Positions 1,775 to 5,524 of a DNA stretch of 5,524 nucleotides are shown here, piece after piece; position 1 is the stretch's first letter; every line of letters starts with the position of its first letter. Position numbers and translations under genes: made by a program. The notes below the pieces were generated by a model. The model was not told where the DNA came from, did not search any database, and worked only from the letters and a program-made list of their open reading frames with translations. Source of the DNA: Legionellales bacterium (GTDB taxonomy: Bacteria > Pseudomonadota > Gammaproteobacteria > PIVX01); NCBI GenBank assembly GCA_013215905.1, contig JABSQI010000128.1:1-5524 (forward strand), written 5' to 3'.

Positions 1775-4700
1775 TTATTTCTGTTCTAAATCAATATTTA
1801 TACCAAGAGCACGTATCTCTTTTACAAGCACATTAAAAGACTCTGGCATGCCTGCTTCCATACGATGATCTCCGTCAACAATATTTTTATATATTCTTGT
1901 ACGCCCTGTAACATCATCAGATTTCACAGTTAGCATTTCTTGTAGAGTATAAGCTGCGCCATAAGCCTCAAGTGCCCATACCTCCATTTCACCAAATCTT
2001 TGCCCACCAAATTGAGCTTTACCACCTAGTGGTTGTTGAGTAACCAAGCTATAAGAACCAGTAGAACGAGCATGCATCTTATCATCAACAAGGTGATTCA
2101 ATTTTAGAATATACATATAACCAACAGTTACAGGTGTATCAAACTTTCTACCAGTTCTACCATCACTTAAATTTATTTGTCCATGCTCTGGAAGACCTGC
2201 AATATTTAGCAATCTCTTAATTTCAGACTCACTTGCCCCATCAAAAACAGGGGTAGCAATAGGAACTCCATTTTTTAAATTGTGGCTTAATCTGACTACT
2301 TCATTATCATTTAGCTGAGATAAATCAATATTTTTACCAGAATCACCATTATATATCTTGTCTACAAAATCGCGGATTTCAACAGGATTCCTATTCTCAT
2401 CTAACATTTTTCCAACTTGTAGTCCCAAAGTTTTTGCGGCCCACCCTAAATGTGTTTCTAAAACCTGCCCGACATTCATTCGAGAAGGAACACCAAGAGG
2501 GTTCAATACAATGTCAACAGGTGTACCATCAGGCAAATATGGCATATCTTCTACAGGCACAACTCGGGATATAATCCCTTTGTTACCATGACGACCAGCT
2601 AATTTATCACCTGGTTGTAGCCTACGCTTAACAGCAAGATGAACTTTAACAATCTTTAAAACACCAGGAGCAAGATCATCTCCCTGGTTAATCTTATCTT
2701 TTTGTTTATTTAATTGTTCAGTATTTCTGATTTTACCTGCCTCTAGTTGCTTCTCTAACAATTCAACTTTTGAATTTAAGGCATCATCACTTAAATTTAT
2801 TTTAAACCACTGCTCTCTATCAACTGTATTTAAATACTCTTCACTAATAACTGTGCCTCTTGTTAACTGATTTGGGCCAGCATCAGCTGTACTATTTAAT
2901 AATATATTTTTTAATCTATTATATATGTCCTGTTCCAAGATTCTTAATTCATCATCTAAATCTTTTTGAGCTTGAGCAAGAGCGCTATCAGATATAAACT
3001 GAGCTCTAGAATCTTTACTTATTCCATCTCTTGTAAAAACCTGAACATCAATAACTGTACCATTTATTCCTGAAGGTACTCGCAAAGAAGTATCTTTTAC
3101 ATCAGAAGCTTTTTCACCAAATATTGCTCTTAAAAGCTTTTCTTCTGGGGTTAACTGGGTTTCTCCCTTAGGAGTAATTTTCCCAACAAGAATATCACCA
3201 GGAGCTACTTCCGCTCCTACATAAACAATTCCTACTTCATCCAGCTTAGATAAAACACCATCGCCAACATTAGGAATATCAGAAGTAATTTCTTCCTTAC
3301 CAATTCTGGTATCTCTTGCAATACAGGTTAATTCCTCTATATGAATAGAAGTAAATCTATCTTCTTGGACTATTTTCTCAGATAACAAAATTGAATCCTC
3401 AAAATTATATCCATGCCAAGGCATAAAAGCCACTAACAAATTTTGTCCCAAGGCTAATTCACCCATATCTGTACATGGCCCATCAGCTAGAATATCTCCT
3501 TTAGAAATTTTATCGCCTGACTCCACTAATACTCTTTGATTAATACATGTGTTTTGATTAGATCGGGAATATTTAGTCAAAGTATAAATATCTACACCTG
3601 TATCGCCATCTAAAGTTTCAGTCTCATTTACTCTAACAACTATTCTACTAGCATCTACAGAATCAACAATACCATCTCTCTTAGCAACTAAAGCAACACC
3701 TGAATCAACGGCAACTGTCCTTTCCATTCCCGTTCCCACTAGAGGTTTCTCAGAAATTATCGAAGGAACTGCTTGACGTTGCATATTAGAACCCATCAAA
3801 GCCCTATTAGCATCATCGTGCTCTAAAAATGGGATTAAAGATGCAGCAACAGAAACTACTTGTTTTGGAGATATATCCATATAATTAATATTACTAGCCT
3901 GAGTCATGGTAAACTCATTCTTATGTCTACATGGGACAAAATCTTCTACAATCTTTCCCTCAGCATCCAAATTAATATTTGATTGAGCTATATAGCATTC
4001 GTGCTCAACAATTGCTGAAAGATAATCAACTTTATCAGTTACCTTTCCATCAACAACACGACGACAAGGAGTTTCTAAGAAACCATATTTATTTGCTTTA
4101 GCATAGATAGCTAATGAATTAATCAACCCAATATTTGGACCTTCAGGGGTCTCAATAGGACAAACTCTACCATAATGAGTTGTATGAACATCCCTTACCT
4201 CGAATCCAGCTCTTTCTCTCGATAGACCTCCTGGCCCTAGGGCAGACATTCTTCTTTTGTGAGTAATCTCTGATAATGGATTTGTTTGATCCATAAATTG
4301 AGATAATTGGTTGGTACCAAAGAAAGAGTTAATTACTGATGATAATGTTTTCGCATTAATTAAATCAGAAGGTGTAAATACCTCATTATCTCTTACATTC
4401 ATTCTTTCACGAATAGTTCTTGCCATTCTTGAAAGACCAACACCAAATTGGTTGTACAATTGTTCACCAACCGTTCTAACTCTTCTGTTACTTAAGTGAT
4501 CAATATCATCAACTAAAGTTTTAGAGTTTATTAACTCAATTAAATATTTGATAATAGATATGATATCTTCTCTAGACAATGTTCTAACATTATCTGGAGT
4601 ATCCATATCTAATTTTTTATTTATTCTAAATCGACCTACTTCTCCTAAATCATATCTCGTTTCAGAGAAAAATAATTTATCGATAACACCTCTTGCAGTT

Positions 4701-5524
4701 TCTACATCAGGCGGCTCAGCATTTCTCAGTTGTCTATAGATATGTTCTACAGCTTCTTTCTCTGAGTTAGAAGGATCTTTTTGTAAAGTGTTGTAAATAA
4801 TTGCATAATCTGCAGAATTTACATCTTCTTTATGAAGGATAATTGTTTTAGAACCTGATTCAATTATTTGATCAATGTGCTCTTTTTCAAGAAGTGTTTC
4901 TCGATCAATAATTACTTCATTTCTTTCAATAGAAACAACTTCTCCAGTATCTTCATCAACGAAATCTTCTACCCAAGTTTTTAATACTCTTGCAGCTAAT
5001 TTTCGTCCTAAAATCTTTTTAAGTCCTGATTTACTAACTTTTACTTCGTCAGCTAAATCAAATAACTCTAATATATCTTTATCAGTTTCGTATCCAATAG
5101 CTCTAAAAAGAGTAGTTACAGGTAACTTTTTCTTTCTATCGATATAAGCATACATTACACTGTTAATGTCTGTAGCAAATTCAATCCAAGAACCTTTAAA
5201 AGGAATTACTCTTGCTGAATATAATTTAGTACCATTTGCATGGCGACTTTGACCAAAGAATACACCTGGAGATCTGTGTAATTGAGATACAATTACTCTT
5301 TCTGCTCCGTTAATTACGAATGTTCCTTTATTTGTCATATAAGGGATAGTCCCTAAATATACATCTTGAACGATTGTTTCAAAATCTTCGTGCTCAGGAT
5401 CTGTACAATAAAGTTTTAATTTGGCTTTTAAAGGTACACTGTGTGTTAAACCTCTATCAATACACTCATCTATCGAATATCTCGGTGGATCTACAAAGTA
5501 ATCCTGAAACTCCAATACGAATTG
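1775..5524 (-). CDS. rpoB: DNA-directed RNA polymerase subunit beta, 5' end beyond the right edge; apparent Bacteroidota/Gammaproteobacteria chimera
   Basis: This encodes the second-largest core RNA polymerase subunit, which forms one side of the active-site cleft and binds rifampicin. Visible are 1,249 residues ending in TAA at 1775-1777. The frame is open through the right edge (QFVLEF...), so the TTG at 5515 is an internal Leu codon; about 60-65 N-terminal residues are missing, judging by flavobacterial homologues. In order there are the beta1/protrusion with [20 protein letters not shown], the lobe ([18 protein letters not shown]), the rifampicin pocket at 4238-4318, the fork region with [20 protein letters not shown], the flap region, and [12 protein letters not shown] with the two NTP-contacting lysines (codons 2603-2605 and 2579-2581; E. 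coli K1065 and K1073). The C-terminal anchor is [20 protein letters not shown] and the protein ends [10 protein letters not shown]. Residues before about 4290 are Flavobacteriia-like. Those after about 4240 are gammaproteobacterial, so the gene as shown probably joins two organisms. No frameshift or internal stop occurs. Confidence 0.97.
4238..4318 (-). other. rpoB: Rifampicin-resistance-determining region of rpoB, sensitive-type residues
   Basis: This stretch aligns without gaps to E. coli RpoB residues 507-533. It reads [15 protein letters not shown] followed by [12 protein letters not shown]. The positions most often changed in resistant strains keep the sensitive state: Q513, D516, H526, R529 and S531 (E. 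coli numbering). T replaces N at 518, which as I recall is the usual Bacteroidota residue and not a resistance change. The apparent taxonomic switch lies inside this region, so the residues come from two sources and should not be used to predict the phenotype of either. Confidence 0.85.
4240..4290 (-). other. Probable chimera junction inside rpoB
   Basis: Upstream in the reading direction (higher coordinates), the protein has Bacteroidota residues up to DQTNPL (codons 4274-4291); gammaproteobacteria usually have DQNNPL. Next comes S415 (codon 4271-4273; Q410 is the first residue of QTNPL, counted from the TTG at 5515), where gammaproteobacteria have Ser and most Flavobacteriia have Ala. The two Leu codons of ALGPGGL (4238-4240 and 4223-4225) are CTA, a codon I did not find among about 35 Leu codons to the right but which recurs to the left. 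By codons 4163-4183 the sequence is clearly gammaproteobacterial (H-T-T-H-Y-G-R-V; Bacteroidota have H-Y-T-H-Y-G-R-L). The stretch between, EITHKRR, is nearly invariant across bacteria and is a natural place for reads of two species to be joined. The exact base cannot be fixed by eye. Confidence 0.7.
4291..5524 (-). other. Segment of Bacteroidota (Flavobacteriia-like) origin
   Basis: This is the 5' part of the assembled rpoB. Diagnostic blocks include [20 protein letters not shown] at the right edge, [33 protein letters not shown] (5162-5200), [40 protein letters not shown] and [18 protein letters not shown]. They match flavobacterial RpoB as I remember it nearly residue for residue. E. coli-type sequence is very different there, for example RGSWLDFEFD in place of [10 protein letters not shown]. 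Leu is almost always TTA, CTT or TTG. The assignment to Bacteroidota is firm; the class is likely and the genus unknown. Confidence 0.85.

Follow-up and report, generated by a model that had tools for sequence, protein, structure and literature searches.

A change of phylum within an rpoB reading frame that is best explained as a join made during metagenome assembly

The window (the whole stretch of 5524 nucleotides analysed here) carries two genes, both on the minus strand. The first, rpoB, is a single open frame of 1249 aa (positions 5524-1775), truncated at its 5′ end by the window edge, and is followed by rpoC, which extends to the left edge of the window. Three segments could be distinguished within rpoB: a flavobacterial 5′ part (4220-5524, residues 1-435 as read, N-terminus missing), a switch stretch common to both lineages (4185-4221) that codes for [12 protein letters not shown], hereafter the motif, and a gammaproteobacterial 3′ part (1775-4183, residues 448-1249 and the stop codon). 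The 5′ part of rpoC occupies positions 2-1708, its start at 1708 being assigned by homology. In the large protein collection the hybrid RpoB corresponds to entry P0001, which has one member, on a single contig. As this contig measures 5524 bases, the window probably represents all of it.

The rpoB gene of the window derives from two sources, Bacteroidota and gammaproteobacteria, as an earlier note based on the sequence alone had proposed; separate searches and trees place the halves in different phyla. Trees of 35 rows each were built with a quick method, and the phylum split received an SH-aLRT support of 100 (no bootstrap) in both the N-part and the C-part tree. Since the two trees put the window in different phyla with this support, chance is not at issue. 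With residues 1-435 the window falls inside Bacteroidota, together with protein P0002 (end branch 0.007), and with residues 448-1249 inside Pseudomonadota, together with P0121 (end branch 0.076). In the same trees P0121, P0122 and P0124 carry gammaproteobacterial N parts, and P0002, P0017 and P0047 carry Bacteroidota C parts. The window RpoB thereby resembles RpoB of the Vicingus family (Flavobacteriales) at residues 1-435 but not at 448-1249, whereas its likeness to RpoB and RpoC of Legionella-like gammaproteobacteria covers residues 448-1249 and rpoC but not residues 1-435. As a whole it groups neither with Bacteroidota (N part only) nor with gammaproteobacteria (C part only).

The switch had been placed by the earlier note between 4163 and 4290, and the present data both confirm and narrow this interval. 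Identity to the flavobacterial protein P0002, counted per block of 50 residues, is 47-50/50 for residues 1-450 and 33/50, 18/50, 35/50 and 21/50 in the four blocks that follow. For the gammaproteobacterial protein P0121 the corresponding values are 14/50 to 30/50 in the blocks before residue 400, rise to 45/50 for residues 401-450 and stay at 35-50/50 beyond. The last Bacteroidota-typical residue is S435 (codon 4222-4220) and the first residue typical of the gammaproteobacterial relatives is T448 (codon 4183-4181). The third base of codon 447 (position 4184) is C in all five flavobacterial rows that reach this point, and T in the window and in five of six gammaproteobacterial rows. Bracketed by these three positions, the switch lies within approximately 4185-4221, i.e. 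within the stretch coding for the motif, and the lineage-specific wording quoted in the earlier note for each side is present in the sequence.

The residues flanking the motif were compared in 336 fetched proteins, which are the best-hit lists of three protein searches and not a random sample. The residue before the motif is S in all 214 proteins that are Bacteroidota-like in both halves, and the residue after it is Y or F. In the 119 proteins that are gamma-like in both halves the motif is preceded by T (118) or N (1) and followed by T, P, A or I. The pattern is looser among the comparison loci, of which 127 out of 133 could be scored, with the motif present in a usable frame (L101-L104, L121 and L129 lack it and were left out; some of the loci come from the same genome). 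Among the 74 Bacteroidota-like loci, T precedes the motif in one and H follows it in one, and A precedes it in four of the 53 gamma-like loci (betaproteobacteria included). S435 is therefore typical of Bacteroidota, not absolute.

The flavobacterial part is closest to the Vicingus family. Among the best 120 matches listed from the protein collection for residues 1-425, P0002 ranks first with 99% aa identity, and the rows that name an organism give Vicingus, Vicingaceae, Flavobacteriales or Bacteroidetes. Entries labelled Vicingus or Vicingaceae share 90-97% aa identity with this part; one of them, P0047, belongs to Vicingus serpentipes. At the DNA level 41 of 46 Vicingus-family genomes match the flavobacterial part, the nearest being G849 (97% over 1327 bases, contig C134) and G857 (95%), both of this family.

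The gammaproteobacterial part groups with Legionella references. In the best 120 matches listed for residues 450-1249, P0121 (88% aa identity) and P0122 (82%) are followed by Legionella and relatives from about 75% downwards, with named Legionella proteins at 73-74%. In DNA, among 140 sampled genomes of one order, identity reaches 73% at best when the full match is counted, and up to 77% when only a portion of it is. The rpoC product shares 84-85% aa identity with those of three loci of the same Legionella-like group (L107 at 85%), which agrees with the earlier reading of this gene as gammaproteobacterial. That reading had limited its collinearity with E. coli to residue 464; in the match table, query residues 17-582 correspond to residues 1-566 of the E. 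coli beta-prime chain in one stretch of equal length, so that this limit does not stand.

The join itself was searched for in several collections. A protein search with residues 360-540, in which 8000 candidates were scored and 120 listed, gave no listed protein above 80% identity except the window. Whole-protein relatives encoded on genome contigs (best 80 of 594) reach at most 63% in their best segment. The genome searches covered samples of 369 (324 scored), 140 and 295 genomes, each taken from a larger group, and also 42 genomes of one order. A DNA query across the join (4061-4340) matches 41 of the 46 Vicingus-family genomes, and the best join-crossing match is 86% identical (bases 3-275 of 280); the sole 96% match to this query in the same genomes halts at the end of contig C134 of G849. 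The exact 59-base join sequence had no match in viral contigs. A distant search across the join in plasmid records returned 47 records, all with 60-80% identity. None of the 127 comparison loci carries a mixed rpoB; all are unmixed. Besides the 214 and 119 proteins that are uniform in both parts, the 336 fetched proteins include three mixed ones, i.e. the window, P0240 and P0241.

P0240 (1306 aa) and P0241 (954 aa) are each encoded on one contig, of 13,828 and 7,234 bases, respectively. P0240 switches from Flavobacteriaceae-like to gamma-like at the same motif, and its branch is long in either tree (0.14 and 0.52). P0241 switches from Bacteroidota-like to proteobacterial-like at the motif or somewhat upstream of it. 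It has T at position 435, as does one of the 74 Bacteroidota-like loci, and its break may accordingly lie slightly upstream of the motif. The C part of P0241 has no clear closest reference in a reference set that does not include alphaproteobacteria. In each of its two parts, either protein is clearly distinct from the window; their parents are therefore not those of the window, and they are likely to be the same kind of false join between other parents.

The motif also coincides with a contig end in the nearest flavobacterial genome. The rpoB contig of G849 (C134, locus L129; 3481 bases), which matches the window at 97% DNA identity, ends inside the motif, where position 1 of L129 is equivalent to 4198 of the window. 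Assembly of another genome thus broke off at exactly this point, although the G849 sample is possibly not independent of that of the window. A later part of a flavobacterial rpoB is found on another G849 contig, C186 (locus L130), which overlaps C134 for 313 bases (L130 positions 8-320) at only 89% identity and is therefore apparently derived from a different strain or species. G849 may thus mix strains or species at rpoB.

As stand-in parents, 12 flavobacterial loci (two of them from one genome; 11 of the 12 stop before the end of rpoB) were paired with 11 gammaproteobacterial loci. The longest exact in-register match among these 132 pairs is 28 nt and begins in codon 435; the true shared length may differ, as the gammaproteobacterial stand-ins, counted over the full match, share only about 73% DNA identity with the window. 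The join lies within a stretch shared by both sources, with the gammaproteobacterial parent represented by stand-ins. When 859 windows of 36 nt are ordered by their mean identity across the stand-in pairs, the motif comes 65th; ordered by best pair, it comes second (with ties). The longest exact run lies upstream of the motif, at residues 400-419, in 55 of the 132 pairs, and starts at residues 420-439 in five. Judged by the rank in mean identity and by the runs at 400-419, other stretches of the gene are equal or better joining points.

Taken together, these data indicate that the contig is very probably a chimera made in assembly and not the gene of a real hybrid enzyme. Reads or graph paths of a flavobacterium of the Vicingus family and of a Legionella-like bacterium, both presumably present in the same sample, would have been joined at the conserved rpoB stretch that codes for the motif. 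Because the two genes are homologous and in register at this point, a false join keeps the frame open and looks like one gene. An artificial join is favoured because the hybrid occurs on one contig only in the protein collection, the relatives of each half are ordinary in the opposite half, and 127 of 127 loci are unmixed; it is favoured further because the nearest flavobacterial contig ends in the motif and the two other hybrids change at or near it. The same evidence supports, as the best explanation, the proposal of the earlier note that two co-occurring species were joined at shared k-mers during metagenome assembly. The assembly reading is weakened by the fact that other stretches are better conserved between the stand-in parents than the motif.

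Shared k-mers that link graphs and give rise to chimeric contigs are a failure of metagenome assembly described in the accessible part of PMC7299287. The cases presented there resemble the window in having two sources, a shared stretch, one contig and parents whose relatives are ordinary. They differ in that they involve closely related species and sequencing errors, whereas the window involves two phyla and a conserved housekeeping motif.

It is improbable that the join was made in the library, before assembly, by template switching at the shared rpoB stretch during PCR or whole-genome amplification. Such switching needs just a short shared stretch, like the one found between the stand-in parents, and would likewise yield a one-off hybrid; P0240, P0241 and the G849 contig end at 4198, however, are explained at least equally well by graph branching. 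It also counts against a library origin that a lone chimeric molecule would rarely attain the depth needed to build a contig, unless amplification were heavy. We infer that the joining step was probably that of the assembler rather than of library preparation.

A real homologous recombination between phyla, in which a Legionella-like bacterium acquired flavobacterial DNA in place of its own rpoB 5′ part, and with it a hybrid RNA polymerase, appears highly improbable. Transfer of rpoB by homologous recombination within a genus is described, in the accessible part of PMC5742357, for Mycobacterium yongonense; that case comprises one genus and several strains, whereas the window comprises different phyla and one contig. 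The intact reading frame and the position of the break in a homologous, conserved stretch would suit such an event, and P0240 and P0241 could be interpreted as additional cases. However, the 5′ part has 97% DNA identity and up to 99% aa identity to known flavobacteria all the way to the contig edge, and as it is still so close to the donor family, the recombination would have to have happened very recently. No second break appears up to the window edge, which lies inside the flavobacterial part, and the hybrid is present in no other record searched (all 127 loci being unmixed). An exact match of at most 28 nt, as found among the 132 stand-in pairs, is short for homologous recombination.

The corresponding biological picture is a living gammaproteobacterium whose beta subunit carries recently acquired flavobacterial lobes, the motif region being a natural recombination point used repeatedly (in the window, P0240 and P0241); we regard this as scarcely credible. 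A single lineage with an RpoB that is unusual throughout was rejected, since the relatives that match one half have an ordinary RpoB in the opposite half, and so was a plasmid origin, the window being without a near match in plasmid records. Two matches to this rpoB stretch in the plasmid collection, H3 and H5 (2.1 and 3.7 Mb, respectively), look like chromosomes filed as plasmids.

As biology, the hybrid gene very probably means nothing. Its interest is that conserved stretches of rpoB can serve as false joining points between phyla, with the gene staying in frame, and that protein collections list the resulting records like any other RpoB: three of the 336 best-hit proteins, the window included, look mixed. 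Marker-gene trees and claims of core-gene transfer between phyla should be screened for such joins.

Base composition was not used as independent proof of two sources, since GC3 is nearly equal in the two halves (0.172 and 0.193), though the overall GC content is slightly lower on the flavobacterial side (0.30-0.32 to the right of position 4250 and 0.32-0.38 to the left of it).

Two further observations concern the relatives of the gammaproteobacterial part. The loci with the 73% full-length DNA matches, L105 and L106, belong to genomes of about 0.5 Mb (G427 and G419, respectively), similar in size to the reduced genomes of symbionts. For at least 14 of the 120 proteins listed for this part (P0121, P0124, P0128, P0129, P0130, P0132 and others), the longest contig measures approximately 15-17 kb, as would be expected if a repeat, e.g. 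two tuf genes, flanked the rpoBC operon on both sides.
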